Shown here piece by piece: positions 8,418 to 23,828 of a stretch of DNA of 64,000 bases; position 1 is the stretch's first letter; each line of letters begins with the position of its first letter. The position numbers were made by a program, and so were the translations under genes. Origin of the DNA: Gammaproteobacteria bacterium (GTDB lineage Bacteria; Pseudomonadota; Gammaproteobacteria; Pseudomonadales; Pseudohongiellaceae); assembly GCA_028818225.1 (NCBI GenBank), contig JAPPOG010000053.1:1-64000 (forward strand), written 5' to 3'. The notes beneath the pieces are model-generated. The model had not been told where the DNA came from. It saw only the letters and a program-made list of their open reading frames with translations, and searched no databases.

Positions 8418-9935
8418 CTACTCAACTAGCTTTATCCAATCGCCGGCTTCTGGCGTGCCAGTTGGATAGTAGCCATTAAGCAAACGCAGTGTTTCTTCCG
8501 GGAAGTTACCAATTCTGCTCTGCTGGGCAACAACGGAAAAATCAAAGAATTCGCTGGCTTGAACATACTTAATCTTCATCTCATTACCTGCTACGACTTC
8601 TCCCTGTTGGATCGCTCGAAAGGAACGAATTGAAGACAATAACATCTCGTCTATCTCATCTACCCTGGCGTTGTCGGTAATTTCTCCGCGAAAGATAAAA
8701 GCGCGAGAACCTAAATAAAGTGTAGCGACTCGCTCCATTTTTCCAGTTTCGGGATTTATTGCCGTACCGGTATGTCCAATCAGGCGGTATTGAGCCAGAG
8801 GTTCAGATTTTTGTAAATTTTCAACTCGCATATTGTCTCTAATAAAGACACGTGGCTCTATATTACCGCGCAGGCGCTGAGCTTCTATTCGCATCCTACC
8901 TACATTAGGCGCACTGGCGGTAACGGTAGTAGTGGTTTCATTGATTGACCAGTCATCTGGAAACACTAATGTGTAGCCGAGTAAATCCTGGTAATAACGA
9001 TTTCGCTGGTCTGTTCGTTGAGAAGCATTACTTTGGCCGACAATTAAACCGTCGATTGACTCTCTAAATGTTTCGTTATCAACTTCAGTGGCCGCATTTT
9101 CGTCTAGCTGGCCAACCTGTGCTATCGCTTGCTGGAGGCGACGATCATTGCGAGGGTGAGTTGCGAACAGGCCATGATAGGTACCGCCACCACCGGTTAC
9201 ACGTCGATTGAAATCTTCCTGGTTCTTTAATACGGTAATAACATCAATCATTGCGGCGGGATCATAGCCCGCGTTGACCAGATATTCGGCTGCCAGACTA
9301 TCCGCTTCTAGCTCTTGTTCACGCCCAAAACCGGACAGGCCAGTTTGTGCCCAGATAGAAGCAACTTCACTGATTTGATTTGCGGCGTAGCCACTGCCAG
9401 TTGCAATACCGGCGACAATGCCACCCGCAACGGCAGCACCGCGGGCCAGAGCGCCGCGGGCCTGCTGCTGTACCGCATGGCGCGCTGTTATGTGCCCAAT
9501 TTCATGAGCCAGGACCGCAGCAAGATCTGCTTCTGAATTCATGTAGGTGAGCAGTCCTCTGTTTACATAAACATAGCCACCCGGTAAGGCGAAAGCATTT
9601 ATTTCAGGGCTGTCGATGACGTAAAAATTATATTCAAGATCTGGCCGATGACTAACGTCCGCCATTCTCTGGCCGATCCTGCGTACATAAGCGGCCAGCT
9701 CTTCATCTTCAAACAGAGGCATGGATGACATGACTTTTTCATGCTCTTCCAGTCCGATCTCTTTCTCTCTGTTTTCACTCATCAAGACCAAGTTTGCGCC
9801 CCCCGTCGCGGGATTAACTGCGCATGAGGAGAGAACCATAAAGAGGATCATTGCGCTTATAGCGCTGACATAAATCCTGAAATCAGTTTTCATAATAGAC
9901 ATAGTCGACATAGTTAGGTTGCCTGGTTTAATCAT
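8418..9935 (-). CDS. M48-family metalloprotease lipoprotein (BepA/YfgC-like N-terminal half)
   Basis: A 505-residue predicted lipoprotein with a hydrophobic signal segment and lipobox LSSC (Cys38). The zinc site is HEIGH at 144-148, with the third ligand in the downstream ELEADSLAAEY glutamate, as in peptidase family M48. FALPGGYVYVNRGLL just before it is the usual BepA/LoiP-type lead-in. The C-terminal third (from about 310) is a separate domain instead of the TPR tail of E. coli BepA. M48 lipoproteins act in the periplasm on misassembled outer-membrane proteins. The start at 9935 has AGGTGG upstream; an internal ATG at 9893 would give a shorter leader. It is the last gene of the envelope cluster, 36 bases after the lipoprotein gene 9972-10643. 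Confidence 0.88.
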   Translation of the reverse strand: MIKPGNLTMSTMSIMKTDFRIYVSAISAMILFMVLSSCAVNPATGGANLVLMSENREKEIGLEEHEKVMSSMPLFEDEELAAYVRRIGQRMADVSHRPDLEYNFYVIDSPEINAFALPGGYVYVNRGLLTYMNSEADLAAVLAHEIGHITARHAVQQQARGALARGAAVAGGIVAGIATGSGYAANQISEVASIWAQTGLSGFGREQELEADSLAAEYLVNAGYDPAAMIDVITVLKNQEDFNRRVTGGGGTYHGLFATHPRNDRRLQQAIAQVGQLDENAATEVDNETFRESIDGLIVGQSNASQRTDQRNRYYQDLLGYTLVFPDDWSINETTTTVTASAPNVGRMRIEAQRLRGNIEPRVFIRDNMRVENLQKSEPLAQYRLIGHTGTAINPETGKMERVATLYLGSRAFIFRGEITDNARVDEIDEMLLSSIRSFRAIQQGEVVAGNEMKIKYVQASEFFDFSVVAQQSRIGNFPEETLRLLNGYYPTGTPEAGDWIKLVE

Positions 9936-9971
9936 GGTGCCACCTGTCCCACTTTTGAGCAGCGTTTGTAG

Positions 9972-10643
9972 CTAGCTGCCGTTTACAAAGCCTTTAAGTT
10001 GAGTCGCCAAGCGGCTACACGCATTCGCCTCAACTCGCGCTATTAGCGGAATAGGAACTACAAGTGCTGGCAGATAGGATTGTCCAGTGGCATCGGCGTT
10101 TATTGTTCCAACGTTCCTTAACGAGCCGACGTCCCAAACGCGCGCATCGAAATTGGCATCATCTTCCCACGTGCCAAATCCAAAACACCCGCCACCGCCT
10201 GGACCAACGGTGCAGGAAATTGAACCTGAGCGGCCAGAGGTTTCGGTAAAACCATCGACCCAAACAATATAGCGAATTCCAAAATCATTCATCTTTCGAG
10301 CAACAACGTCTTCCGCCATTAGTTGCTCCAAATCGCGCGTACGCAAGGGTGCTGTGCGAGGCTCGAACCAGGGGAACATGGCATCGATAAATACTTGCTC
10401 TGGAACTACGCTGATAGCATTGTCCCCCCGCTGCATACGGTCGCCGACGCATTCAACAAATTCCGATCTGGTTTCGTAATCGCTGGCCTGGCGACGACCA
10501 AGAATTACCACCGACTCATCACTTTCGATACCCGTTTCACCCTGACGAAATTCATCCACAGTAGTGCTGGTGCAGGAAGCGATAAACCCTATCAGCAACA
10601 CACAAGCACTCAACTTCAGCATTGTTCTATTAATTGCATTCAT
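9972..10643 (-). CDS. Uncharacterised lipoprotein in the envelope cluster
   Basis: A 223-residue protein with a lipoprotein signal peptide: basic n-region, hydrophobic LSACVLLIGFIASC, and lipobox IASC at about residue 24. The mature part has four further cysteines, a Gly-rich turn TVGPGGGGCFGFG, and alternating strand-like segments. I do not recognise a named family. It starts at an ATG with GAGG six bases upstream. It lies between two other lipoprotein genes with gaps of 26 and 36 bases, so it is almost certainly co-transcribed with them. Outer-membrane location is inferred: residue +2 after the Cys is Thr, so the Lol-avoidance Asp is absent. Confidence 0.75.
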   Translation of the reverse strand: MNAINRTMLKLSACVLLIGFIASCTSTTVDEFRQGETGIESDESVVILGRRQASDYETRSEFVECVGDRMQRGDNAISVVPEQVFIDAMFPWFEPRTAPLRTRDLEQLMAEDVVARKMNDFGIRYIVWVDGFTETSGRSGSISCTVGPGGGGCFGFGTWEDDANFDARVWDVGSLRNVGTINADATGQSYLPALVVPIPLIARVEANACSRLATQLKGFVNGS

Positions 10644-10669
10644 TACAAACCTCTATCGAGCCCCTTGCT

Positions 10670-11296
10670 CTAAAGGTTACTTAACCAATCACGCACCTCA
10701 GGAACTTGCGCGAAGCTTAATGAAAAGCTCGAAGCAAGATCACGCAATGCAACAACGGCGGCTTCATTTATACCGGCTTCTACCGAGCGGAAAGTTTCTG
10801 TTGGTGTCTTTCCATAGGACGTCAGTACCCAATCCGCAATATAGTCACCCTCGGAAGTGAGCAAGCGCATATTGTACTTTATCCAAACTTCATAAACGTC
10901 CAGCTTGGTCTTTGCCGGAAGTGCCAGTTGAAATTCTTCGATAGCTGGCGCGAATACGGCGTCTACATCCTGACTGGCGGCGTCTTCGAGGCTAGTGACA
11001 CTGATGACCCGATCGAACATGGCCGGCAGTACGGCGTCAAACAGGCGGATATGAGACTCACCACTTTCTATGTTGATTTCTTCGCGGCCAGTTTCACTGT
11101 ATTCCATGTAAGCAAATTCCTTCAGCGCATCGTCGTAATAAACCGCTACTGCAAGAGGAATCTTGTTGATATTTGGGGTTGGGAAGCTTCCCTCAATGAC
11201 CACATTACTGGTGCCACAGGCCGTCAGCAGGCTTGCCCATATAAGGACTGAGATTCTGCCAAGAATAGCTTGCTGCGTGGTCTTCAGTACTTTCAT
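10670..11296 (-). CDS. Uncharacterised lipoprotein in the envelope cluster
   Basis: A roughly 208-residue lipoprotein with lipobox LTAC after a hydrophobic ISVLIWASLLTAC segment. An upstream GTG at 11314 is in frame, but the ATG at 11296 has AAGGAA six bases ahead and gives a normal signal peptide, so I chose it. The mature protein begins with an extended beta-type stretch (IPLAVAVYYDD) and ends in amphipathic helices (EAAVVALRDLASSFSLSF). This alpha/beta pattern recalls small envelope lipoproteins of the YajG or ABC-auxiliary kind, but no family can be named with confidence. It sits between the VWA gene ending at 11344 and the next lipoprotein gene, with short gaps. Confidence 0.72.
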   Translation of the reverse strand: MKVLKTTQQAILGRISVLIWASLLTACGTSNVVIEGSFPTPNINKIPLAVAVYYDDALKEFAYMEYSETGREEINIESGESHIRLFDAVLPAMFDRVISVTSLEDAASQDVDAVFAPAIEEFQLALPAKTKLDVYEVWIKYNMRLLTSEGDYIADWVLTSYGKTPTETFRSVEAGINEAAVVALRDLASSFSLSFAQVPEVRDWLSNL

Positions 11297-11343
11297 CGCC
11301 ATTTCCTTCGTCACTCAATGCCGCCTAAGTTTAAACCGGCAAA

Positions 11344-12354
11344 TCACTGATAATCGTTCAAGCCTACAAATGTACCACCATTTCGCTGCGTCATCTCCCG
11401 CATTAGGGTGGAATATCGGTAAACACTCTGCTGAAATCGCCTGGGACCCGCGAAAATCGTAGGAAATCCGATTCCGTGAATTCTCACCAGTCGATCACCA
11501 TTTTGATCCTCTACATTGATGCGGTCTATGGTCTGCAGCACATTCTGGATCGATCCACCGGGCTGAAAATCGTCGCCCAGCACATAAATACTAATCTTCT
11601 TGTCATTCTCATAAAAGGTATCAATGGCCCGGGTGACACCCTCTACCGGACTGCTATTACTGTAAGGATTCCAGCTACGCAGGGTTGAAATGATCTGATT
11701 ACGCCGTCCGGGTGTATCGGGAATCCAATCACCCCGATAAGAATCGAACATGTAATCCCCCATATCATTCATGACCTGAATCCCCTTAACTTCCGGATAG
11801 ACGTTGAGCGTGTCCTCGATTACGCCGAGCATTTTGTCCCAGCTGGGATTCTGGAACATGCTGCCGGAAGTATCGATGACAAAGATGATGTATTCGCTGT
11901 CCACCGGCACCCCACCAATCGCATTGTTTTCCGGTGCCCTGGTATTGGCCAACAGGCGCTGCATCTCCTCGGTCAAGGATTGCTGAGCTAAAGCCAGCCG
12001 GCCGAACTCATCAGTAGTTTCATCGGAAAGCTCTCTGGTGGTGTTGTAACGGCCTTCAATGTCCTCGAGATCCCGGCGCAGGCGCGCGATGCGCTCTTTC
12101 TCGGCAGAGAGCTGCTCATGCTTGGCATTTAGCTCGCGATTGAGGATGGTTGTCTCACCCCGGATCTCGAACAGTTGCTCCTGTAATTCCGCTACCACAC
12201 CTGCAGGCACAATATCTTCCACAACCTCCAGGGTTGTTGGTGCAGAGGATTTGGTGATCATCAGAAGAATGATCATGGCACCGAATCCACAGGAGGCCAC
12301 ATCCAGAAAGGATACGGTAAAGGAATCGGTTTCTCTGTTTCTGCGTCTGGCCAT
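11344..12354 (-). CDS. Membrane protein: ExbD/TolR-like TM helix, coiled coil and VWA domain
   Basis: A 336-residue protein. Residues 12-33 form a single transmembrane helix (FTVSFLDVASCGFGAMIILL) with an Asp at its cytoplasmic entry (Asp18). This resembles ExbD/TolR stator helices, where that Asp carries protons. Residues about 53-137 are a charged heptad-rich coiled coil. Residues about 154-336 are a von Willebrand A domain with an intact MIDAS start DTSGSM (161-166), expected in the periplasm. It is paralogous in plan to the protein at 12463-13566, sharing FLDV..CGFGA.I. It is encoded in the same run as a TolQ/ExbB-type channel gene. Energised coupling is inferred from architecture; no function is known. 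Confidence 0.82.
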   Translation of the reverse strand: MARRRNRETDSFTVSFLDVASCGFGAMIILLMITKSSAPTTLEVVEDIVPAGVVAELQEQLFEIRGETTILNRELNAKHEQLSAEKERIARLRRDLEDIEGRYNTTRELSDETTDEFGRLALAQQSLTEEMQRLLANTRAPENNAIGGVPVDSEYIIFVIDTSGSMFQNPSWDKMLGVIEDTLNVYPEVKGIQVMNDMGDYMFDSYRGDWIPDTPGRRNQIISTLRSWNPYSNSSPVEGVTRAIDTFYENDKKISIYVLGDDFQPGGSIQNVLQTIDRINVEDQNGDRLVRIHGIGFPTIFAGPRRFQQSVYRYSTLMREMTQRNGGTFVGLNDYQ

Positions 12355-12462
12355 CGGTGCTTAAAAGTTATCTCAATTATGTATGTAGTCTTTGTTCTAC
12401 CAAGTTTTAGTTTTTCTCAAACTCGTGAATTTACGAAAAATTCATCAATTTTATGCAATCAA

Positions 12463-13566
12463 TCAGGGCCAATCCTTGGAGGGCGTTAAAAATGATCCTC
12501 GCGTGTACTGTGCTAACTGCCAGAATACCGCGGCAGCACTGGGATCTCCCTCCAATGGCATCAATACTATATTGACCGGAATCGACTGGGGTAATTCTTC
12601 CACCGCTTCTTCAAATAATTCTACCCGTTCCCCCGGCGTAACCAGGGGCTCCGATGAGCCGCGATTATTAAGGGTTGGCAAGCCATCGGTGATCAAGAAA
12701 ATATTATCTGGCCGTGGTGACATATTCGCGACCGCAATGAAAACCTGCTCCATGTTGGTTCCATTATTAGGTACGATGGCGCGCACATTTTCGATTGCTT
12801 GATTTAGCTGATCTCTGTCGGCGACCTCCAACCAGTTGTCCTCGGTGCCGGAGATTACTGATTGGTATCCTGTATTGAAATTCCAGATCTGATACTGGCT
12901 GGTGATGGGAAGCTGGGTGCTAATCCAATCTACCGTACTTACTACCCGTTGCCATTTGGGTGCATTCCGTTTGCGCTCATCGCTCATATTACGGGTGCGG
13001 ATTATGTTAACGATAGTGCTGTCCAGCATACTGGCGGAACTGTCCAACAGAATTAAAATTCGCTGACCGCCGAGAAACAGTCCGGACAGGTACTGCCTGT
13101 TCCCGTCCCCGAGGAACTGCCTCACACTGTTCCCCTCCTGCTCGAAAGCGCTGGCTTGCAAGCGCAAAACCTCCTGCTCCAATGCCTCAATATCCGAACG
13201 TAGCCGGGCCAGATCCTCTACTGTAGCCATGCTACTGTTCTCAAGCGCCGCCAGCTCCTGCAAAAAGGTATCGATCTGCTCCATGATCTGTCGAGCGAGG
13301 CCTTCCGCTGTTACGACTTCGAAATCCACATCAGACAATGTATTGCGAATACGCACCAGACCTAGTTGGCCTTCTTCTACTTCTTCCCTTAACAGGTTGA
13401 TTTCAGCCAACAACTCCGGGCTGGTTTCTTCCGGGGAAATCGTACTGGCGTGGTCCAGGATCAGGAAAATCAAGATCACAGCGCCAAAACCACAAAACAT
13501 GACATCGAGAAATGCCAGGCTAAGAGGATTGACCTTGCGTCTGTTAATTTTGCTGTTACTGGCCAT
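12463..13566 (-). CDS. Second ExbD/TolR-like TM plus VWA-domain membrane protein
   Basis: A 367-residue protein with the same plan as the one at 11344-12354. A transmembrane helix at about 15-37 (LSLAFLDVMFCGFGAVIL, Asp21) is followed by a coiled coil at about 50-140. A VWA domain from about 165 has MIDAS DSSASM (175-180), a downstream NNGTNMEQ threonine and LITDGLPT. Metal-binding residues look intact. Its ATG overlaps the end of the Hsp70-like gene by 11 bases and has AGGTGA just upstream, indicating translational coupling. A 108-base gap separates it from the other VWA gene. The two may form a heteromer around the channel subunit encoded at 14933-15742; this is inference. Confidence 0.82.
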   Translation of the reverse strand: MASNSKINRRKVNPLSLAFLDVMFCGFGAVILIFLILDHASTISPEETSPELLAEINLLREEVEEGQLGLVRIRNTLSDVDFEVVTAEGLARQIMEQIDTFLQELAALENSSMATVEDLARLRSDIEALEQEVLRLQASAFEQEGNSVRQFLGDGNRQYLSGLFLGGQRILILLDSSASMLDSTIVNIIRTRNMSDERKRNAPKWQRVVSTVDWISTQLPITSQYQIWNFNTGYQSVISGTEDNWLEVADRDQLNQAIENVRAIVPNNGTNMEQVFIAVANMSPRPDNIFLITDGLPTLNNRGSSEPLVTPGERVELFEEAVEELPQSIPVNIVLMPLEGDPSAAAVFWQLAQYTRGSFLTPSKDWP

Positions 13567-14908
13567 TGTTCACCTGAATAAGGCTGATTTCTTCACCATT
13601 TTTAACAAAGCAAATGCGGTCGCCCAGGTTTAAGGGACACTCTCCCATGACGAGACTGCCATTCACAAATACTTGTTGATTCCCACATTTGAGATAGACC
13701 TCATCTCCGCATTTTTCAATGCGCCCCAGTGACTCGGGTAAATTCGCAATATTCATCACGATAGTACCGCTAACTTTGGCACTGCCATTGAGCGTCTCAT
13801 TATTCTTGATATCAATAGTGCCGATGGCAAACGCACGATTAGCAAAAAGGACGTGAGTTGGTCGCTCTGCTGCTGATACCTGCTGGCTGCTGTCAACAGT
13901 CCCGCGACCCAGCGCGCTGGCGGGAAATTTGTTAACCAGGTGTATACCCTGATCTGACCCCGCGATGAGTTCACGATATTGATGACAGGCAGAATTGACT
14001 GAATGATCTTCGACAATGACAAATTCACTTATCTGCTTTAGTGCTGATTGATAGCCCGGAAGCTCCGCCAAATTTTTACTCAGTAACAGCTGTGCGTTGT
14101 TCGTGACGCCGATGGCACTTATCTGTTCGTTAATTTTTTTATAGTAATCATTCAGCGTGGTGATCAAAGTTTCCCGGGGAAGCTTTGCTGTATGAACCGC
14201 AGTCGCACTCTTCAGTGCTAACTGTAATGTTTTTTCTTTGTCATCCTGTAGTAACCAGGAAGGTAATTCATTATAGAGTTGTTGTTCCGATTCGGCATTG
14301 TGTTGCGGATTAAAACGACACTGTTGGATAAACATATCAGTCGCAATCTGCATCATCAGGTTCATAAAATTCTGATTACCAACACCAGGTATTTGAACAA
14401 CACCCTCTGTTTCCAAATGATCTCCAACAATAGCCAGCTTGGTTAATACCACCTGGTGTAATTGTATGTCTGCATAAACGATATGCTCAGCTTGCGCTGC
14501 CGAGACTGTTGCCGCCAGTGCAGAATCGACCACGCCCACTGTCGTAAATGGGCTCTGTTGAGCCAGGCCAAGGAGGATCGCCAGTTGTTGTCGTGAAAAA
14601 TTACCTGGAACAGCAAAAATGACATCTTTGTCTATCGCACCAGCTTCAGCGAGATGCAAAAGTTGCGCATAAGCCAGGTCGGCGAAATGGCGAATTTTAT
14701 TACTGTGAGAGATCGGCTCGAGGCTTAACTCATGCCAATATTTATTGAAGCTATTAGTTGGTTGCAAACGTGCTTGTTGCTCTGCTGAATCACCGACTTC
14801 CAGAGTGTCGCCAACTACCAGAGCAAAACCCGGGCTTTGTACGATGATGCCACTCTCATCACCGACCTTTATGCCTCGATCGTTCAGCTCAATGACTTTC
14901 AACGACAT
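13556..14908 (-). CDS. Hsp70/actin-like ATPase-fold protein with FHA-like C-terminus
   Basis: A 450-residue cytosolic protein without signal peptide or membrane helix. The N-terminal region (1-310) reads like a divergent Hsp70/actin-fold protein: DVIFAVPGNFSRQQLAILLG matches the chaperone-type VPA-x-F-x-x-x-QR element, and GVVDSALAATVSA the following helix. HIVYADIQLHQVVL occupies the usual phosphate-loop strand position but lacks the classical DxGGGT, so ATP hydrolysis is uncertain. The C-terminal roughly 90 residues end in QQVFVNGSLVMGECPLNLGDRI, like the FHA pattern G-T-x-VNG...L..GD.I. It sits between the channel gene and the VWA gene and overlaps the latter by 11 bases. I infer a cytoplasmic regulatory or assembly factor for the membrane proteins. 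Confidence 0.7.
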   Translation of the reverse strand: MSLKVIELNDRGIKVGDESGIIVQSPGFALVVGDTLEVGDSAEQQARLQPTNSFNKYWHELSLEPISHSNKIRHFADLAYAQLLHLAEAGAIDKDVIFAVPGNFSRQQLAILLGLAQQSPFTTVGVVDSALAATVSAAQAEHIVYADIQLHQVVLTKLAIVGDHLETEGVVQIPGVGNQNFMNLMMQIATDMFIQQCRFNPQHNAESEQQLYNELPSWLLQDDKEKTLQLALKSATAVHTAKLPRETLITTLNDYYKKINEQISAIGVTNNAQLLLSKNLAELPGYQSALKQISEFVIVEDHSVNSACHQYRELIAGSDQGIHLVNKFPASALGRGTVDSSQQVSAAERPTHVLFANRAFAIGTIDIKNNETLNGSAKVSGTIVMNIANLPESLGRIEKCGDEVYLKCGNQQVFVNGSLVMGECPLNLGDRICFVKNGEEISLIQVNNGQ

Positions 14909-14932
14909 CTAGAACGCCTCATTAATTCCCAT

Positions 14933-15742
14933 CTACTCACCTTTCTCCGGTACCTGCAAGTGACGAACCAGTCTTTCGTCACAATAATTTTGGCAGTCCA
15001 GTACCAGTCGATCTTGCAGTAATTGCAGTTGGTGTAAAAGGAACATCAAGAAGATGCTGACTACCAGCGCAACAAAGGTTGAATTGAATGCAACACCCAG
15101 GCTTTGGGTTACCCCGGCGATATCACCTGCGACTGCTTGATAGGCCTGGCCCAGCGCTGTGCCGATACCACGCACTGTCCCCAGGAAGCCTATAGAGGGT
15201 ATAGCCCAAGCAATGTACCTGACGATGGTAAGCTCAGTTTCCATGCGATCAGCTTCTGTTTCACAGGTGTCTTTTATTATGGATGACACTGCCTGGATGT
15301 TTTGCGTACTTTGAAATCGATGTAAACCAGCGAGAAGTGCGCGCGGCAACAAATACTCTTGTTCTTTTTCTGACAGGGCCTGAACAGGCCGCGCGATATT
15401 CCGAGAGTCCTCCGGCAATATACTCATGCCGTCTTGCAGTTGTATCAGGGTTCTGTCGAGTAAATTCCGCTGGCGCAAGGTATGTTGGGTTTTCATACCA
15501 ATGATCGTTACCGCCCAGAGGAAAAATATGATGCAGAACTCCTGCTCATAGTTGCGCAGGATAATAAACACAGATCTTTCGGGAACGATCTCTGGATTCT
15601 GCTCCTGCATTAACGCTTGCTGCTCCTGAATCAAATCAGCATTTGGGCGGATCACGGTTACATAAGTGCCATGCACAATAATTATCACCAGGATTAGGGC
15701 GCCAACCTGAAAGAGAGCTTCATACAACGAGCCTTGCTTCAT
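14933..15742 (-). CDS. MotA/TolQ/ExbB-family proton-channel subunit
   Basis: A 269-residue inner-membrane protein with four predicted helices at about 10-30, 68-84, 174-196 and 216-238. The family signature is clear: AWAIPSIGFLGTVRGIGTAL in helix 3, then GDIAGVTQSLGVAFNSTFVA leading into helix 4, whose Thr/Ser residues line the proton path in TolQ/ExbB. It has a fourth N-terminal helix and a long cytoplasmic loop (85-170), unlike standard TolQ. AAGGA lies seven bases before the ATG. No ordinary exbD, tolR or motB gene is adjacent. The only candidate partners are the two TM-VWA proteins encoded 24 bases and more downstream. Confidence 0.9.
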   Translation of the reverse strand: MKQGSLYEALFQVGALILVIIIVHGTYVTVIRPNADLIQEQQALMQEQNPEIVPERSVFIILRNYEQEFCIIFFLWAVTIIGMKTQHTLRQRNLLDRTLIQLQDGMSILPEDSRNIARPVQALSEKEQEYLLPRALLAGLHRFQSTQNIQAVSSIIKDTCETEADRMETELTIVRYIAWAIPSIGFLGTVRGIGTALGQAYQAVAGDIAGVTQSLGVAFNSTFVALVVSIFLMFLLHQLQLLQDRLVLDCQNYCDERLVRHLQVPEKGE

Positions 15743-15771
15743 AAACTATTCCTTTTTCGAATAACCGGTTT

Positions 15772-16044
15772 TCAAATATCTACCGGAAACGAAACACCTA
15801 AGTCCTGGGAAATTTGTTCAGTGGGGATAAACCGTGAGTTTGATTGTTCTTGCTCCTCGTCACCCGCACTATTCTCAAGGACTAATTCATCATTTTCAGC
15901 GGCGGCTAGTTCTTCAGGGGTAAGATCTGTATCCAAACCCTGTTCGTTGTTTTGGGCTTCCTGCTCAGGCGCATTGGATTGCTGGTCCTGTGCCCAAACA
16001 CCGTAGGTAAAAACAAGAGCAAAAAATAAAATCAATTTCTTCAT
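15772..16044 (-). CDS. Small secreted acidic protein
   Basis: A 90-residue protein with a classical signal peptide (MKKLILFFALVFTYGVWAQ, cleavage probably after WA). The mature chain of about 71 residues is rich in Glu, Asp, Gln and Asn with no cysteine and few hydrophobics, so it is probably disordered. It ends with a more ordered IPTEQISQDLGVSFPVDI. It lies between the SUMF1 gene (33 bases) and the channel gene (29 bases) with AGAGAA ahead of its ATG, so it is a genuine member of the run. No family is recognised. A periplasmic linker or partner of the channel complex is possible, but only by position. Confidence 0.7.
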   Translation of the reverse strand: MKKLILFFALVFTYGVWAQDQQSNAPEQEAQNNEQGLDTDLTPEELAAAENDELVLENSAGDEEQEQSNSRFIPTEQISQDLGVSFPVDI

Positions 16045-16077
16045 ACTGTAGTTCTCTTTGTGAATACCCCGTGCTGC

Positions 16078-18159
16078 TTATTCCAAATAACGTGCGATTC
16101 GAAAACCCACGTCATCACGCGGTTCTTCACCAAAATCTCTGAATGATAGGCGCATTTCGGTGACTGCTCCATGAGCCCAACTGGATCCACGTATGGTGTG
16201 AAATTGTCCCAATTCTGGGCCAAGTGGATCGACTTCAACTCCGACTGTACCAACCGCCCCATAGTAATCATGCACCCATTCTGAAACATTACCGGCCATG
16301 TCATAGATGGCATAGTGATTTGGAGCAAACGAAGCAACTGGCGCTGTCGCAAAATAATTATCGTTATAGTTGAACATTATTTCGCCCAGATAATTCTGTG
16401 CCGTAATGTCAGCAAAATTTCCTGCATTTTCCGGTGGAGGAAGCTGGTCACCCCAGGGATACTTCAGGGTATTGCCGGTACCATCAGTTCTCGCAACCCA
16501 GGCCCATTCAGCTTCGGTAGGCAGGCGATAACCTGTTGCCTCCGGGTTAAACCCAATTATATCTTCACCGTCGATTTCATAAAAAAGCGGCAGGCCTTCC
16601 TGCTCGCTTAGCCAATTGCAGTAAGCAGCAGCCTGTGCCCAGGAAACCTGGACTACCGGCTGCGATTCATTATTTAACGTGACACCTGAAACCGTGCCCG
16701 AAGAATGATCGGCGCTGAACTGGCGAAACTCTGCATTGCTTACTTCATTGAATCCAATGTAGAAGGCTCGTTCCAATTGAATGTCACGCAGGTTTTCATT
16801 GGGCCGCCTGCCTGCCTCCCGCCTGGACGCACCCATGGTAAACGCACCTGGATAGAAAAGTTTTAACTCCTGACCTGCTGCGGTAGTTATCACTGGTCTG
16901 ATTTGCTCCAGACGAGCCTGCTCAAGAGATTTAAGAGTGACTCGAATCGCCTGATCCAACCCGGGTCGGGAAGTAAATTCGGCCGTATAGGGGACAAAGC
17001 CGTCTTTACGGATTTCGATCTGTTGGCTGGCAGCCATCAATTCCAAAGTCTGGTTTGCCAGACCTCGGAACTCACCATTTACATAGAGCTCGGCGTCTTC
17101 CGGCTGGGCAATCACACTCACGCTTGCCAGTTCCGGGTCCAAACTGACATTTAACTCTCTTTCCTGGTTCGGTTCAGTGCGAATCGAGGTCCTGCTGGAA
17201 TAATAGCCACTTTTGAAGAAGCTCAGCTCGTGGTTCTGACCAGGAGGCAGGGCGACTTCCAGTGGGGTAAGCCCTTTGAACTCTCCACCGATAGTGACCG
17301 ACGCGGCCGAAGGATTGCTGCGAATAAAAACCAGTCCATCGGCAGGTTCCAATTCTACCAGGGGCACGTTGAAATCCTCGCCGGCAATGATATCGAAGTC
17401 TTCCTGCCATGCTTTGTGTCCTGCCAGCTTGAGGGTTAAATCCCGCCGCCCTTGCAGAATTTCAGCATTAACAGGCGTTATGCCGATAACTTCGCCGTCT
17501 AATAAAACATCGGCGCCAGGCGGTGTGGTTGAAAGACCCACAACTGCCCACGCTGGCTCCAGGCTGGCTTGATAACTCTGTTCCACTTGCCGCCCTTCGA
17601 TGTCAATGGTCTGGCCAAAATCCAAATATCGATCCAGCGAAATCGTCATCTGATGTTCGCCCGGCTCAACTGGAATTTCTATGAGTGGAGTCAGGCCAAC
17701 ATCCACTCCATCAATTTGCACTCGGGCACCACTTAGGTCCATTGTTGCAATGGAAACTTTGCCCGGCAGTCTGCGCATTTCAAAGGGAATTGTTTGCGAC
17801 TGTTCAGTATTAACCAGAAGTTGCGTCACCGTGTCGTGGTAACCCTCATTACTAAGCCTGATGGCATAAGAACCGGTACGAATCAGGTATCGCTGCCCCA
17901 AGCGAACATGTAATCCACCACTAATTTCTATCTGCGCAGTAATTGGATTGACCTCGACAAAAACAGATCTGGCGGTTAATACAAACCATCCAGCAATACC
18001 GGAAATAATCAGGAATATACCAACAACAAAATGAACAGGCTTGGGCTTAAAAGTGACTCGTGGCCCCTTTTCGTCATGAGGGGTAAAGTCGATAGGAACA
18101 ATAGGGTCAGCAGGCCCATTAACTTTATTAATGTCGTCGTCAATGTTGTCCACACTCAT
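16078..18159 (-). CDS. Membrane-anchored PEGA-repeat protein with C-terminal SUMF1 (formylglycine-generating-like) domain
   Basis: A roughly 693-residue protein. A short cytoplasmic segment is followed by one transmembrane helix (about 44-64, FVVGIFLIISGIAGWFVL) and then about five tandem PEGA-type beta modules (66-410). These show repeats such as GADVLLDGEVIGITPV and AASVTIGGEFKGLTPLEV. Residues about 428-692 are a SUMF1/FGE-sulfatase domain with FTMGASRREAG, YRLPTEAEWAWVAR, DMAGNVSEWVHDY and RGSSWAHG. Most bacterial SUMF1 domains are binding or regulatory and not formylglycine-making; no sulfatase gene is nearby. The ATG at 18159 overlaps the stop of the TPR gene as TGATG, so the pair is translationally coupled. 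An in-frame GTG one codon earlier is the alternative start. Confidence 0.85.
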   Translation of the reverse strand: MSVDNIDDDINKVNGPADPIVPIDFTPHDEKGPRVTFKPKPVHFVVGIFLIISGIAGWFVLTARSVFVEVNPITAQIEISGGLHVRLGQRYLIRTGSYAIRLSNEGYHDTVTQLLVNTEQSQTIPFEMRRLPGKVSIATMDLSGARVQIDGVDVGLTPLIEIPVEPGEHQMTISLDRYLDFGQTIDIEGRQVEQSYQASLEPAWAVVGLSTTPPGADVLLDGEVIGITPVNAEILQGRRDLTLKLAGHKAWQEDFDIIAGEDFNVPLVELEPADGLVFIRSNPSAASVTIGGEFKGLTPLEVALPPGQNHELSFFKSGYYSSRTSIRTEPNQERELNVSLDPELASVSVIAQPEDAELYVNGEFRGLANQTLELMAASQQIEIRKDGFVPYTAEFTSRPGLDQAIRVTLKSLEQARLEQIRPVITTAAGQELKLFYPGAFTMGASRREAGRRPNENLRDIQLERAFYIGFNEVSNAEFRQFSADHSSGTVSGVTLNNESQPVVQVSWAQAAAYCNWLSEQEGLPLFYEIDGEDIIGFNPEATGYRLPTEAEWAWVARTDGTGNTLKYPWGDQLPPPENAGNFADITAQNYLGEIMFNYNDNYFATAPVASFAPNHYAIYDMAGNVSEWVHDYYGAVGTVGVEVDPLGPELGQFHTIRGSSWAHGAVTEMRLSFRDFGEEPRDDVGFRIARYLE

Positions 18160-19697
18160 CACCTATTGGTGGCAACTACTCGTTCCACACATTGCACTAC
18201 TACAACATCGGGAGTTTGACCGAAGCCGACAACGAATTCTTCTCTAACTTCCCGGTAGCCTATACGCTTGCCGACGGCAACGTAACGACCAGGCTTAAGT
18301 GAAACTGATGTTTCTTCGAACAAACCCAGATTCCCGATACGCAAGATCGTCACATCAGTAAGATTGTCAGACGCCATTCGAATATCCAGCGGCACTTGGG
18401 AAGTTTCGAGGAGCACTTGCAAGTTATCGAGCTGATCCAGTAGGCGTGGACCTGGATTTTCAATAGCACGACCAGTGTAATAAATGTCCAGTGTTTGCTG
18501 GAAAACATCCTCTTCATAGAAACGGTCAGGTGTTTCTATTGAGCCCACAAGAAGATCATCCAGTTGCGCGCGTTTGCTTGCATAATCGCGGCCATTTATA
18601 GCGAATATCAGGTTGGCATCGATCGCCAGTACATTGTCATATTCAGCAACGGCGGTGTGCCATTCTTCCTGCGCTTCGGCAGCGCTGATTCTTTCCTGCA
18701 TCACTGCAATCTGGGCATTAGCTACTTCATTTTCCGTTTGAGTGATAGCAGCCAGCGCTTGCTCGGCATTAATTCCCATAGCCGCAGCGCGTTCAAATTC
18801 AGCAATGGCAGCCTCAGGATCACCACTCTCTAATGAGGCATAACCCGCTGACATGATTCCTGCAAATTCGCGCTCCAAAATTAACGCTGAAATTTCTGAA
18901 ATTCTCTGCTGTGCCGTTTCATTGTAACTATCGAGGCTAACAATCTGTTGGTAAGTGTTCCGGGCCGCCTCCAGTTCGCCGTCTTCCTGCAGCTCCTCTG
19001 CTTCAGCCATAAGGCGAAGCACTTCATCCAGCGCCCGGGATCTCTCCAATCCGATCTGTGCAGTTTCGCTGTTACCGTCGAACAGTAACGCTAATGAGAA
19101 TTTGTCCTGGGCCAATTCTGATTCGCGATTGTCCAAGGCATTCTGCCCTTCGCTTAAGGTCTGCTGAAGCACTGTTGGCACTGTTTCGAGAATTGCCAAG
19201 AGGCCATCTCGCCCACTGGTGTAAGATTCTATTGCCAACGGGAAATCCTGGGTGCGGTAATACTCATCGCCGATACTGGCCACTTCCAGCGCAGCGGCAT
19301 AATCTTCCTGTGCCCATTTTTCTACTTCCAGTAATTCCAGATCACCTTGACGCTCTAACAGCTCGGCCAGGACATCTTGCGCCTCTTTTCTCTGTCGCGA
19401 GCGCTGCGCTTCTTCGAAAGGCGAGATTGAAGTAACTGTTTCAGCTTCTTCCTGAGCCGGGACCAAGTCAGCGACATCGACACGTCGCTCTAGAGGTAAT
19501 TCATACTCGGTAACGATGTTTGGCAAGACAAATATGACTAGCAGCGCCACCAGCAAAAGACCAGCGACACTGAACCACACCCATACAGGAGGTTTGTTGG
19601 ATTCTACGGCTGCAGTTGAATTGACATAAATCTGGTTTTCCTTAAAACCAGATTCTTGCGACTCTTGTTTGTCCTTGTCGGCATCGTTTTCTGACAT
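18159..19697 (-). CDS. TPR/coiled-coil inner-membrane protein with PEGA-like C-terminus
   Basis: A 512-residue protein. An acidic cytoplasmic head of about 35 residues precedes one transmembrane helix (about 37-60, VWFSVAGLLLVALLVIFVL). A periplasmic, very Glu/Ala-rich alpha-helical region follows with TPR-like repeats (for example DKFSLALLFDGNSETAQIGLERSRAL is one helix pair, and YASLESGDPEAAIAEFERAA another). The last 75 residues switch to a beta-type PEGA-like module (SVSLKPGRYVAVGKRIGYRE). Its stop overlaps the ATG of the PEGA-SUMF1 gene. The shared topology and coupling suggest the two proteins form one periplasmic scaffold; this is inference. Confidence 0.78.
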   Translation of the reverse strand: MSENDADKDKQESQESGFKENQIYVNSTAAVESNKPPVWVWFSVAGLLLVALLVIFVLPNIVTEYELPLERRVDVADLVPAQEEAETVTSISPFEEAQRSRQRKEAQDVLAELLERQGDLELLEVEKWAQEDYAAALEVASIGDEYYRTQDFPLAIESYTSGRDGLLAILETVPTVLQQTLSEGQNALDNRESELAQDKFSLALLFDGNSETAQIGLERSRALDEVLRLMAEAEELQEDGELEAARNTYQQIVSLDSYNETAQQRISEISALILEREFAGIMSAGYASLESGDPEAAIAEFERAAAMGINAEQALAAITQTENEVANAQIAVMQERISAAEAQEEWHTAVAEYDNVLAIDANLIFAINGRDYASKRAQLDDLLVGSIETPDRFYEEDVFQQTLDIYYTGRAIENPGPRLLDQLDNLQVLLETSQVPLDIRMASDNLTDVTILRIGNLGLFEETSVSLKPGRYVAVGKRIGYREVREEFVVGFGQTPDVVVVQCVERVVATNR

Positions 19698-19736
19698 ATC
19701 TATTTCTGAGGATGGAAATAACCTTTGGGCTTTTGG

Positions 19737-20921
19737 TTAAAATTGTCCTACTTCCGCTGCATAAAGATCTGCCAAAATTTCTCGCCACTGTTCGTATTGT
19801 TCTTCGACTGAACCTGACAATGTAATTGTACGATCATCCAAATTGATAACTTGCGGCGCTACTTCGTTTTCAAGTGACTGGCCAAGCTCTTCCAATGCTT
19901 CCATGTGAATGCGCGCTTCGGCCTGCTTATCGAAACCACTCTTGATCAAATACGCCCCGGCACCAACACCGAATGCTCCCCCGGTTTGGGTGGCATAGTT
20001 ACTTCCCTGAGTTGCCGCAGCCAATCCACCAACTACAGCTGCAGCCCCAGCGATGAAACGGCGCCTGGCGGAAGCTTCCAGTTCTCGCAGGGTGATGGTT
20101 TCGTGGTAACTCTGTTCCCGCCAGGAATCGTAAGGCAGACGCATCTGTCTTACATAAGTCGCATAATAATCCTGAACCGTATCGATAAACATGAAATCAC
20201 GCTCTCGTATATCACGTATACGGCTTAACACCGGGTCAGAATCGGCCGGTAAGGCTACAATTTCGTAAATACCATCTCGGCCCTGGCCAAGGTAGTTGTT
20301 AAAGACGTCGGGCGAAAATCGCTGAGCAAACAGCATCTCCGAAACGGTGCGGATTTCCATTACATCTTCGTTTTCAATGTTGTCCTTTTTCCATGCCAAT
20401 AGATCATTGGCAATGTTGTTGTACAAAATCTGGAATGGATCAACCTGCTGACGTTGAGATGGGTCATAACTAAACTGGCTAATCTCCTGATCGTACTCCC
20501 TGGTATACCAGGTACGACCGGTAGAATCTGCAACCTGAATTCTCATGGCCATGGATTCACCATTGGACTCGAGTATCGTGCCGTTAATGAACACATCCAT
20601 TGGGCTGGAATCATTCGGCATCAAGCGCACGATTCCCCAGTTGGCAGAACGTTGCAAAGTTTCAGCAAGCAAGTAAGGCGCATAGCGAGACTCGGCAACC
20701 CGGATTTGTGGATTGGTAAGTGCTTCCTGGTCATCATCCATGTCATCAAGACCTGGATCGAAGATGGCGACACCCACATCCAGCAACAGATCTTCAGGAA
20801 CATATTCACTATCCTGAATCACCGGCGTATAAGAGGTGGTTTTCACGGTATGGGTTGCACAGGCAGTTAAACCTATCGCAAACACTATTAATCCAATTGT
20901 GTTTCTACCAAAGCATCTCAT
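19737..20921 (-). CDS. Uncharacterised lipoprotein with internal Gly/Ala-rich hydrophobic segment
   Basis: A 394-residue predicted lipoprotein (IVFAIGLTACATHTV, lipobox LTAC at about residue 21). The first half of the mature chain is alpha/beta (LLLDVGVAIFDPG; MDVFINGTILESNGESMAMRI) and resembles envelope lipoproteins that assemble at the outer membrane. Around residues 285-320 a Gly/Ala-rich stretch (FIAGAAAVVGGLAAATQG) could insert in or pack against a membrane. The C-terminus (RTITLSGSVEEQYEQWREIL) is beta plus helix. The family is not recognised. Its ATG overlaps the stop of the Ser-rich lipoprotein gene as ATGA, so it is translationally coupled to it. Confidence 0.75.
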   Translation of the reverse strand: MRCFGRNTIGLIVFAIGLTACATHTVKTTSYTPVIQDSEYVPEDLLLDVGVAIFDPGLDDMDDDQEALTNPQIRVAESRYAPYLLAETLQRSANWGIVRLMPNDSSPMDVFINGTILESNGESMAMRIQVADSTGRTWYTREYDQEISQFSYDPSQRQQVDPFQILYNNIANDLLAWKKDNIENEDVMEIRTVSEMLFAQRFSPDVFNNYLGQGRDGIYEIVALPADSDPVLSRIRDIRERDFMFIDTVQDYYATYVRQMRLPYDSWREQSYHETITLRELEASARRRFIAGAAAVVGGLAAATQGSNYATQTGGAFGVGAGAYLIKSGFDKQAEARIHMEALEELGQSLENEVAPQVINLDDRTITLSGSVEEQYEQWREILADLYAAEVGQF

Positions 20922-22087
20922 TGCTCATCACCTTCACTAATACCTGTATAGTTTCTGTATTCATCCCACAGTGCCTCACGCAACTCTGGGTCTGGTTCGC
21001 TCATCGCCGCTTCTCTTAACTGGCGTGCAACCACATCATCATCGCGACCGCTGGGAATGTCCTCCGGTGGCGGAAAGGTTTGACTGGGTGGAGGCGGGGA
21101 TGAAGCTGACGGCTGTGATACAACTGCGCCGGAAGGCGTGCCTGCTTCCGTCAGAATCTGAGGCTGAGCCTGGGCGCTGCCACCGCCGCCGGCATCTCCA
21201 CCGGGTTGGGCGCTGCCTGCCGCGTTACTTTCATTCTGTGCTCTTTCACGCTCACTGAGGATGAAGCCATCGAAGGTTTCATAGCCGCGGCGCAAGGCCT
21301 CATCCAATACCTGGGCCCTCTCTGCGGCTGTCATAGGCCCCGAATTCTGGTTTTGCGTGGTACTATTCCCACTTAATACGCCGTTTGGCAGCGTATCCAG
21401 ACTATAATCCCCACCTGGATTTGCCAAAATGCCTCCTCCAGAACCGGTATTCCCACTTTGGCCACTATTTAGATCACCTGTTGAACTATCCCTGCCACTA
21501 TCGCCATTCTGCTCATCGCCGGGAAAGCGGGTTTGGGCACCTGCGTCCTGACCCGGACTATTCTGGCCAGACTGGCCACCCTGTTGAGAGGAAGCCTGCT
21601 GAGAAGCGGCATTTCCGGATGTTCCTGATGGGCTAGCGTTATCCCTTTGGCCAGTGCTGCCGGACGGGCTATTCGCCGTACCCTGGCTGGTGCTTTGACT
21701 GGAAGCCTGGGGAAATGCGCCGGACAGGGTTGGTAGAGCGCCACTGCTTCCGCCACTGTTCTGGGATTGCGCGCTCGACTGAGCCCCCTGAGCAGAGCTT
21801 TGGGAAGAACTGCTCGAGCTGTTCGAAGAAGACTGGGACGACGGCGAAGGAAACGAACTCGACGCAGGGCTCGACGGCGAGGATTGTGACGAGGACGAGC
21901 TCTGACTCGATGGCGATGGCATCGAGGGAGAACTCTGAGAGCTTGAACTTGATGACGACGGCATGGACGGCATCGGCATGCTTTGTGACGAACTCTGCTG
22001 CTGGCTGGCACTTTGACAGGCCAACAGACTGACACTCAGTCCGCCCAATAGCAGGACCTTGGACAGGGTTATGGTTTCCTTTTTCAT
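20918..22087 (-). CDS. Ser/Gln/Pro-rich low-complexity lipoprotein
   Basis: A 389-residue lipoprotein with lipobox LLAC (Cys24) after a normal signal segment. Residues about 25-125 are almost only Ser, Gln, Pro and Met in SSSQ/SMPSP-type repeats. About 126-250 are Gly/Ser/Gln/Asn-rich, and about 275-345 Gly/Ala/Pro-rich. Only two short stretches look folded: AERAQVLDEALRRGYETFDGF near 252-272 and the C-terminal VVARQLREAAMSEPDPELREALWDEYRNY-type helix region near 348-382. The long disordered arm after a lipid anchor would suit a tether that spans the periplasm or extends through another structure. Low complexity leaves long spurious frames on both strands here. The family is unrecognised. Confidence 0.72.
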   Translation of the reverse strand: MKKETITLSKVLLLGGLSVSLLACQSASQQQSSSQSMPMPSMPSSSSSSSQSSPSMPSPSSQSSSSSQSSPSSPASSSFPSPSSQSSSNSSSSSSQSSAQGAQSSAQSQNSGGSSGALPTLSGAFPQASSQSTSQGTANSPSGSTGQRDNASPSGTSGNAASQQASSQQGGQSGQNSPGQDAGAQTRFPGDEQNGDSGRDSSTGDLNSGQSGNTGSGGGILANPGGDYSLDTLPNGVLSGNSTTQNQNSGPMTAAERAQVLDEALRRGYETFDGFILSERERAQNESNAAGSAQPGGDAGGGGSAQAQPQILTEAGTPSGAVVSQPSASSPPPPSQTFPPPEDIPSGRDDDVVARQLREAAMSEPDPELREALWDEYRNYTGISEGDEQ

Positions 22088-23693: not shown

Positions 23694-23828
23694 GATCTTT
23701 TGCTTGGGCTGGTGATGGAATTCCCCTTGTTTGCAAATATTCTTCCTGAAGCATTGCACGATGTCTAAGGAACTACGCTCCCTGCGGCCACCAAGTTCAG
23801 TAATTCTGCGGGGACGACCGGGTTAACT

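Follow-up and report, generated by a model that had tools for sequence, protein, structure and literature searches.

A conserved gene cassette around a TolQ/ExbB-type channel and two membrane VWA proteins, a candidate ion-driven trans-envelope machine in Gammaproteobacteria

To our knowledge, few ion-driven motors of the 5:2 type are known together with their partners: the flagellar, Tol, Ton, gliding/T9SS, and Zorya motors. A motor combining TolQ with a pair of membrane VWA proteins ("transpore-helix" vWA, TPH-vWA) has been predicted with AF3 (Williams-Jones et al., 2025, PMC12204202), and the AglRQ/S motor of Myxococcus is described as having one channel subunit and two different B-type subunits (PMC9389320). 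The locus that we compare with these systems lies in a window of 64,000 nucleotides from a gammaproteobacterium of the Pseudohongiellaceae, probably one of the Pseudohongiella/OM182 type (contig JAPPOG010000053.1, positions 1 to 64,000). An ORF check finds 12 genes in the minus-strand run at 8418-22087; a sequence-only reading of the same DNA had placed these ORFs correctly and counted ten genes, although its own list adds up to 12. The overlaps that it reported recur at 18159-18162, at 20918-20921, and over 11 bases at 13556-13566, and it overlooked a 13th gene, TPR2, which belongs to the cassette:

22308-23759, minus strand: TPR2, accessory; hydrophobic N-terminal segment, TPR repeats, TonB-type C-terminal domain at about 22311-22562; probable start an ATG near 23693
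20918-22087, minus strand: SerLipo, core by synteny; Ser-rich lipoprotein candidate, lipobox LLAC, conserved C-terminal end
19737-20921, minus strand: lipoB, core; lipoprotein candidate with a CsgG/PelC/TolB-N/FlgT-like fold
18159-19697, minus strand: TPR protein, core; one N-terminal TM helix (residues ~40-58)
16078-18162, minus strand: PEGA-SUMF1, core by synteny; one N-terminal TM helix (residues ~45-63), five PEGA stretches, SUMF1 (FGE) domain
15772-16044, minus strand: sec, small protein with a signal peptide by eye; FPVDI tail at 15775-15789
14933-15742, minus strand: TolQ/ExbB-type channel, core; PF01618, Thr189 at 15176-15178, Thr222 at 15077-15079
13556-14908, minus strand: Hsp70-like FHA protein, accessory; Hsp70 ATPase-domain fold, C-terminal FHA-like domain
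12463-13566, minus strand: VWA1, core; Asp21 at 13504-13506, coiled coil, MIDAS DxSxS at 13030-13044
11344-12354, minus strand: VWA2, core; VWA1 paralogue, Asp18 at 12301-12303, MIDAS at 11860-11874
10670-11314, minus strand: lipoC, accessory; lipoprotein candidate, Cys33
9972-10643, minus strand: lipoD, accessory; lipoprotein candidate, Cys24
8418-9935, minus strand: M48 metalloprotease, accessory; lipobox LSSC, PF01435

The channel and the two membrane VWA proteins named in the sequence-only reading are confirmed. The channel matches Pfam MotA_ExbB (PF01618) at 1e-16, and its Thr189 and Thr222 are invariant (21/21) and align with the conserved Thr of this genome's own TolQ/ExbB. VWA1 matches Pfam VWA_2; VWA2 by itself stays under the VWA cut-off (13.9 bits) and is a clear paralogue of VWA1, the two N-terminal profiles matching at an hhalign E of 1.4e-22 and a joint alignment of 29 sequences having 22 invariant columns. 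The paralogues form separate clades (support 100/100, 31 rows each), which makes an obligate VWA1/VWA2 pair likely. Each has a single N-terminal membrane helix, followed by a coiled coil and a VWA domain whose MIDAS is intact in all relatives (69/69 for VWA1, 68/68 for VWA2). The strict motif around the helix Asp occurs in 68/69 VWA1 and 64/68 VWA2 proteins, all five exceptions retaining the Asp, and in 28 of 30 VWA ORFs of the class sample; the other two are both in locus L141, where one retains the Asp and the other was called from a later start, its helix not being read. The Asp is thus kept in every VWA copy in which the helix was read.

No ExbD, TolR, or MotB gene is present at the locus; the ExbD-family (PF02472) places in this genome are on contigs C28, C35, C41, and C59, with none on C76, and no MotB plug domain was found in the genome. 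VWA1 and VWA2 are most likely the ExbD/MotB-type partner of the channel, a role that the sequence-only reading overlooked. When VWA1 and VWA2 are aligned separately, the Asp of the FLD motif lands on the MotB Asp without gaps. Across all comparisons, the VWA helix scores E 0.002-0.01 (probability 4-13%) against the ExbD and MotB profiles: the combined VWA profile gives 0.0032 against ExbD and 0.0022 against MotB (probability 10-13%, not significant), and the single profiles of VWA1 and VWA2 give 0.0029 and 0.0064 against MotB and 0.0096 and 0.0073 against ExbD, both of the latter local alignments missing the Asp. For comparison, the ExbD profile gives 0.017-0.21 with five other helix profiles, and the MotB profile 0.0089-0.17; reversing the VWA profiles gives 0.23 and 0.032, and ExbD against MotB, our yardstick, 0.0004 (probability 34%). 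These profile scores are too weak to show that the VWA helix is homologous to ExbD or MotB.

The motor part of the locus is of the kind predicted by Williams-Jones et al. (PMC12204202): a tolQ-like gene adjoining genes for a heterologous pair of membrane VWA proteins, no tolR/exbD, an Asp in the helix, and a Thr in the channel subunit are all found here, the ring itself being a prediction. The claim of the sequence-only reading that the system as a whole is undescribed is therefore not supported. PEGA and SUMF1 have no matches in the text of that paper, figure 4c aside, and we found no published text on the surrounding cassette with its PEGA/Cys-less SUMF1, TPR, CsgG/PelC/TolB-N-like lipoprotein, and FPVDI protein. 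Relative to Williams-Jones et al., what looks undescribed is the machine beyond the motor: a core of seven genes, the FPVDI protein, and the accessory genes.

These genes form a conserved unit of one kind, centred on the MotA/TolQ/ExbB-type channel. Gene order is unchanged in 59/59 named loci with sufficient flanking DNA, drawn from the best 80 channel matches (21/80 were excluded for too little flank or no channel call), which places conservation of the cassette far above chance. All six core genes are present in 58 of the 59, and single genes occur in 58 (SerLipo), 58 (PEGA-SUMF1), 52 (lipoC), 52 (lipoD), 49 (TPR2), and 42 (M48). The channel gene adjoins the VWA genes directly or with the Hsp70-FHA gene in between. 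Among 275 genomes sampled from the class, a channel homologue (E < 1e-70) occurs in 21 and VWA genes in exactly those 21, with both VWA1 and VWA2 in 19 and the remaining two interrupted by contig ends; lipoB was found in 19 of the 21 (not found in 2), the TPR gene in 20 (not found in 1), and Hsp70-FHA in 12/275, every one among the 21 and none in the other 9. The sequence-only reading would have fallen had the channel mostly occurred apart from its neighbours, and these counts show the reverse. Five remoter channel relatives lack this VWA pair. The cassette also extends outside the class, to family f208 (11 genomes labelled "same phylum", with L141 as an example).

In the PEGA-SUMF1 protein, PEGA (1.3e-46, five stretches) and FGE-sulfatase (SUMF1; 2.2e-42) are both found by Pfam, as is Peptidase_M48 (PF01435, 4.1e-40) in the protein with lipobox LSSC. 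Formylglycine-generating enzyme has catalytic cysteines; the C-terminal motif of the SUMF1 domain has no Cys in 51/51 proteins examined (out of 73, the other 22 being without the search motif), and identity with that enzyme was rejected on this ground. For the supposed TPR-PEGA protein, TPR stands (TPR_2 in 16/18 relatives, E <= 0.01, the window's own matches alone being under the Pfam cut-off) and PEGA does not (0/18, E <= 0.01). TPR2 is probably exported, because of its hydrophobic N-terminal segment; its family profile matches TonB2 (E 1.1e-8) and TonB (7e-8) in the PDB, and Pfam TonB_C occurs in 11/17 members, the window's own protein having no match. In lipoB, whose Cys21 is invariant (28/28 in the alignment), residues 31-186 have the CsgG/PelC/TolB-N/FlgT-like fold, followed by a long helix, a Gly-rich stretch, and a C-terminal part of two strands and a helix; the AlphaFold2 model (pLDDT 75.6) gives VIA Z scores of 11.2 to FlgT and 10.4 to PelC (rmsd 2.3 over 111). 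This fold is common among envelope lipoproteins generally. Cys33 of lipoC and Cys24 of lipoD are each invariant in 14/14, and neither profile had a usable match in the PDB. The sec protein ends in a conserved E(E/Q)ISxDxxVSFPVDI-COOH, with DI as its C-terminus in 69/71 relatives; the tail pattern occurs at 16/19 class-sample loci (11 of these already sec-profile matches) and at 0/7 control loci.

The sequence-only reading set the locus apart from Tol-Pal, Mot, and Zorya, and none of their defining parts was found in the scanned proteins. With Tol-Pal the cassette shares the channel type and a lipoprotein whose fold resembles the TolB N-domain, but it has two VWA proteins instead of TolR, TolA, a TolB propeller, and Pal, none of which matched in the 13 cassette proteins (Pfam, E <= 0.1). 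Ton (ExbBD-TonB) shares the TonB C-terminal domain, which here sits in the TPR2 family, on a probably exported TPR protein with no ExbD at the locus. A SUMF1-domain protein beside an ion-driven motor recalls the T9SS/gliding motor GldKLMN, but the cassette protein is TM-anchored and bears PEGA, and GldK, its best NCBIfam match, scores 109 bits under a cut-off of 350. AglRQ/S has the same layout of one channel and two B subunits (PMC9389320), with TolR-like domains where the cassette has VWA heads. Zorya shares a MotA-like subunit (a weak ZorA2 match, 18 bits); the cassette has envelope lipoproteins instead of ZorB, ZorC, ZorD, and ZorE, which had no match in the 7/13 proteins scanned.

We give a probability of about two in three that the cassette specifies a machine that spans the envelope and is powered by ion motive force, most likely that of protons, and its best reading is a force-transducing machine like Tol or T9SS; the proton drive and the outer-membrane link are what we infer. 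A channel pentamer would enclose one VWA1 and one VWA2 helix, the proposed axle or B subunits, with their aspartates standing in for those of MotB/ExbD, and ion flow would turn or rock the pair. The coiled coil of ~100 residues would put the VWA heads far out in the periplasm, where they could act on the outer-membrane lipoproteins lipoB and SerLipo, coupling motor to outer membrane much as in Tol or the T9SS/gliding motor. lipoB may form a ring, like PelC/CsgG/FlgT, the membrane-anchored TPR and PEGA-SUMF1 proteins may scaffold the driven lipoproteins, the FPVDI tail may be a docking or gating peptide for this complex, and the Hsp70-FHA protein, where present, may regulate the machine from the cytosol. 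Candidate processes are transport, of lipoproteins or at the surface, and stabilisation of the envelope. Somewhat short of an even chance, and so tentative, is a stronger claim: a complete undescribed motor in many Gammaproteobacteria and at least one proteobacterial family outside, with an obligate VWA1/VWA2 heterodimer axle, FPVDI as docking ligand (of the VWA MIDAS) or channel-mouth plug, PEGA-SUMF1/TPR scaffolds, and a driven CsgG/PelC-like lipoB ring. If true, this would be a motor whose axle consists of two different proteins bearing metal-binding heads. The cassette provides a parts list towards finding what the motor drives. It also allows the 2025 prediction to be tested in hosts that are in culture, Microbulbifer and Pseudohongiella among them, with the two Asp and the FPVDI tail as point targets.

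The same parts could instead serve secretion or surface assembly, the motor powering export of sec or of lipoproteins as in T9SS (GldK SUMF1 with GldLM) or PelC/CsgG export. The GldK match of the SUMF1 domain, the CsgG/PelC-like lipoB, and four more lipoprotein candidates in the run, the M48 protease among them, point this way; yet the GldK cut-off is missed, GldL, GldM, and GldN have no match in the 10 cassette proteins scanned, Pfam scans of the cassette proteins show no barrel family, and the sec forms of L138-L141, reaching merely ~15 residues beyond the last hydrophobic stretch, would be poor cargo, which leaves this reading unlikely. Harder still to credit is a regulated ion channel or sensor, in which the VWA heads would bind metal or ligand and gate ion entry while Hsp70-FHA signals to the cytosol. 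Both VWA proteins do have an intact MIDAS, some loci include an FHA-type domain, and in a remote cousin locus (L142) a TolQ-like gene is accompanied by genes for VWA, FHA, PP2C, and Ser/Thr kinase proteins, a signalling context. However, Pfam scans found no kinase or phosphatase domain in the cassette proteins, and Hsp70-FHA is the part not found in 9/21 motor genomes, whereas lipoB and TPR are nearly always retained. The Hsp70-like FHA protein itself has no match in Pfam, and no TM segment was found in it. Its predicted structure (AlphaFold2, pLDDT 89.5) resembles Hsp70 ATPase domains (Foldseek E 1e-16), and its C-terminal part has a weak similarity to FHA structures (E 0.004). Its nucleotide motifs look degenerate by eye.

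The variable presence of TPR2, lipoC, lipoD, M48, and Hsp70-FHA would suit a set of unrelated envelope genes that share a locus and promoter and do not form one machine. This is very improbable, as the core order is kept between families and beyond the class, and separate genes co-occur genome-wide even where the channel gene has moved: at locus L133 (genome G144) it is relocated behind the VWA pair, and in genome G261 it is on another contig, retained in both. Against it stands also one additional genome of the class sample, which has just broken remnants of two core genes.

An envelope cassette built around a published predicted motor is real and strongly conserved, and it is most likely an ion-driven force-transducing machine. 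The sequence-only reading had called it a candidate undescribed proton-driven envelope machine. Williams-Jones et al., 2025 (PMC12204202), in a survey seeded on an Idiomarina species, described this kind of motor from structure prediction: tolQ-like genes beside heterologous vWA gene pairs, without tolR/exbD, with an Asp within a "transpore helix" and a distribution mostly in Proteobacteria and Verrucomicrobia. Neither PEGA nor SUMF1 occurs in the available text of that paper (figures aside), and no text on the surrounding cassette was found in the open-access PMC literature, preprints excluded. The word "undescribed" thus no longer fits the motor, which is known as a prediction, while the cassette appears to be new. 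A defence-system reading was rejected, as PADLOC scores were uniformly low for the seven proteins scanned.

The window is contig C76 of a host draft genome of 3.47 Mb. ORF calling on it gives 12 ORFs on the minus strand of 8418-22087, not the ten genes initially counted there; the overlaps between neighboring genes that had been reported are correct by ORF coordinates. A thirteenth gene lies upstream of the 12.

Genes of the cassette, from the upstream gene and then from 22087 down to 8418
TPR2, 22308-23759, thirteenth gene: TPR repeats and a TonB C-terminal domain
SerLipo, minus strand: Ser-rich lipoprotein candidate
lipoB, minus strand: lipoprotein candidate
TPR, minus strand: TPR protein
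PEGA-SUMF1, minus strand: PEGA-SUMF1 protein
sec, 15772-16044, minus strand: small protein with an FPVDI end
channel, 14933-15742, minus strand: TolQ/ExbB-type channel
Hsp70-FHA, minus strand: Hsp70-FHA protein
VWA1, 12463-13566, minus strand: membrane VWA protein
VWA2, 11344-12354, minus strand: membrane VWA protein, paralogue of VWA1
lipoC, minus strand: lipoprotein candidate
lipoD, minus strand: lipoprotein candidate
M48, minus strand: M48 lipoprotein

The TPR protein had been labeled TPR-PEGA, and the second half of that label falls away, Pfam PEGA being present in 0 of 18 family members. TonB structures are among the best PDB matches of the TPR2 profile (E 1.1e-8 to 8.5e-8), Pfam TonB_C is present in 11 of 17 TPR2 relatives, and the protein is probably exported. 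Scans for promoters (12 vs 18.5 in shuffles) and terminators (22 vs 16.4, sd 4.5) did not stand out, so we claim no operon boundary. After the cassette, a GspE/PilB-type ATPase gene (6466-8250 in the window) follows in 8 of 11 loci of the host genus, two of these being partial matches; it is not beside the cassette in L036-L038, loci from three other families of the order.

Among the best 80 of at least 544 matches to the channel gene, the closest named records are UBA3498 (96% identity), OM182 MED-G28 (91%), and then Pseudohongiella isolates, which makes a gammaproteobacterium of the Pseudohongiella/OM182 type the most likely host. The gene is found in 34/37 host-genus genomes at E < 1e-100 and in 3 of 21 other families of the order (E 6e-102, 1e-98, and 1e-84). 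The 14 fully read loci, of which 11 belong to the host genus and 3 to other families of the order, all share the order lipoB, TPR, PEGA-SUMF1, channel, Hsp70-FHA, VWA1, VWA2, lipoC; tblastn missed SerLipo in five of them, sec in one, and lipoD and M48 in one. Of the best 80 named loci, 59 have 6 kb on either side of the channel ORF; gene order is kept in all 59, and 58 hold all six core genes counted (lipoB, TPR, PEGA-SUMF1, channel, VWA1, and VWA2), the sole exception (L082) being without lipoB, TPR, and PEGA-SUMF1. The other genes are found in these 59 loci as follows: TPR2 in 49, SerLipo in 58, sec and Hsp70-FHA in 59 each, lipoC and lipoD in 52 each, and M48 in 42.

Genome-wide searches, on samples filtered to at least 80% completeness, link the same genes. 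In one set of 275 class genomes searched with five queries (channel, VWA, lipoB, TPR, and Hsp70-FHA), the channel at E < 1e-70 and the VWA genes at E < 1e-50 were found in an identical 21 genomes. Both VWA1 and VWA2 were found in 19 of these, and in the other two (G141 and G151) a contig ends inside or beside VWA1; lipoB was found in 19 (not in G141 or G261) and the TPR gene in 20 (not in the fragmentary G141). Hsp70-FHA was present in 12 of the 275, every one among the 21, and in several lineages its gene is missing between channel and VWA1. The channel is displaced behind VWA2 in G144 and lies on a separate contig in G261. For five channel relatives in this sample that are more remote (E 5e-13 to 1e-26), the VWA search gave nothing at E < 1e-8; among them, G087 has a weak match on a different contig (2.8e-4) and G090 a remote VWA gene (E 8e-5). 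In the phylum sample, VWA genes were found in 13/299 genomes, 11 of them in one family labeled "same phylum" and hence outside the class, where one locus (L141) reads SerLipo-lipoB-TPR-PEGA-SUMF1-channel-VWA1-VWA2 plus an FPVDI ORF. From co-occurrence and locus comparisons, the core comprises seven genes, usually joined by sec. In another genome (G235, contig C1, around 1844372-1847095), stops interrupt the lipoB and TPR genes, and neither the channel nor the VWA search gave a match. This is a remnant, and the whole cassette seems to disappear together.

In alignments, Thr189 and Thr222 of the channel fall on conserved threonines of the host genome's TolQ and ExbB, and the channel profile has no PDB match at E <= 0.01. 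The host genome has four ExbD-family genes, on contigs C28, C35, C41, and C59; there is none on the window's contig (C76), and no MotB plug domain in the genome. VWA1 and VWA2 each have a basic N-terminus followed by a single membrane helix; a coiled coil of about 100 residues then leads to a VWA domain. The Asp of the helix motif FLDxxxCGFGA is present in every VWA copy whose helix was read, and the MIDAS DxSxS is intact in 69/69 VWA1 and 68/68 VWA2 proteins. With this Asp-bearing helix, coiled coil, and MIDAS-bearing VWA domain, their shape is right for a partner. A tree of 31 VWA1 and 31 VWA2 sequences splits into two clades with 100/100 support, which marks the pair as old and retained. 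We consider it likely, with a probability of about 0.85, that VWA1 and VWA2 are the channel's partner subunits.

In hhalign, the comparison of the VWA helix with ExbD and MotB is no more than suggestive, and we do not claim homology. With ExbD and MotB segments excised by their own motifs (30/30 and 23/28 loci), the combined VWA profile gave E 0.0032 against ExbD (10% probability) and 0.0022 against MotB (13%), and single profiles gave 0.0029-0.0096 (4-11%); the known pair ExbD-MotB, tested alike, reached E 0.0004 (34%). For five other helix profiles, E was 0.017-0.21 against ExbD and 0.0089-0.17 against MotB; the two values for reversed VWA profiles were 0.032 and 0.23. The Asp of VWA1 and VWA2 aligns ungapped with the MotB Asp, and the single-profile local ExbD alignments leave it out. 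Against PDB, the VWA family profile matched coiled coils only. One ExbD-family gene of the host genome, at C28:61709-62095, is on a contig where a MotA_ExbB search found no channel gene.

The sec protein, whose signal peptide was judged by eye, is variable apart from its C-terminal end, so the tail, not the rest of the protein, seems to be under selection. Asp-Ile ends 69 of 71 sec relatives found by similarity; these are the independent evidence, since the consensus of 86 tails, E(E/Q)ISxDxxVSFPVDI-COOH, includes members found by tail pattern. A tail-pattern search found a matching ORF in 16/19 class-sample loci (not in L134 and L135, both from G261, or L136) and in 0/7 control loci, which together span about 125 kb. 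The sec profile had already matched 11 of the 16, and five (L131 and L138-L141) were found by tail alone. The ORF lies between PEGA-SUMF1 and channel or, in L133 with its displaced channel, directly after PEGA-SUMF1. In L138, L139, and L141 it has 47-60 residues from the first ATG, with a hydrophobic segment and about 15 residues to FPVDI. A MIDAS usually binds an acidic ligand, and by analogy the tail may serve as a docking ligand for a VWA MIDAS; should the short forms remain anchored in the membrane, it may instead act like a plug near the channel mouth.

A lipobox is present in 5/5 lipoprotein candidates of the window, and alignments of the lipoB, lipoC, and lipoD families show its Cys to be invariant; in relatives, by chosen starts, the pattern is found in 34/58 SerLipo, 64/72 lipoB, 50/56 lipoC, 52/61 lipoD, and 30/44 M48 proteins. 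Under the Lol rule, a +2 residue other than Asp points to the outer membrane, and the absence of Asp at +2 from every window candidate favors that placement. In the predicted structure of lipoB (pLDDT 75.6), residues 31-186 resemble FlgT (Z 11.2), PelC (Z 10.4, rmsd 2.3 over 111 residues), CsgG (Z about 10), and the TolB N-domain (Z 7.5-9.1), a fold widespread among envelope lipoproteins; Foldseek agreement is weak (best E 8.7e-4), and in Pfam the family matches C19orf12 only, weakly, in 3/28. Several envelope lipoproteins with this fold form rings, and by analogy we infer that lipoB might do so. Neither lipoC nor lipoD has a usable match to PDB profiles, and the lipoD family has no Pfam match. 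The SUMF1 domain of PEGA-SUMF1 is probably a binding module, as cysteines are absent from its C-terminal motif in all 51 proteins examined out of 73. The Hsp70-FHA protein has an Hsp70 ATPase fold in its predicted structure, and visual inspection suggests that the usual nucleotide motifs are degenerate.

Elsewhere in the host genome, a lipoB paralogue (E 2.6e-73) lies at C12:13426-14553 (L208:10409-11566), with no other cassette gene within the 19.9 kb read around it, and C59:13567-15000 (L216) holds another M48-family gene (E 2e-39 against the cassette M48 profile), on the same contig as the genome's own TolQ. A remote cousin of the cassette locus, L142:8994-18452 in G090, encodes a TolQ-like protein, an FHA protein, a PP2C phosphatase, two trypsin-like FHA proteins, a VWA protein whose membrane motif is related (ALDLFASALGAFILI), and a PEGA-bearing Ser/Thr kinase, a gene set that suggests a kinase-regulated relative of the cassette motor.
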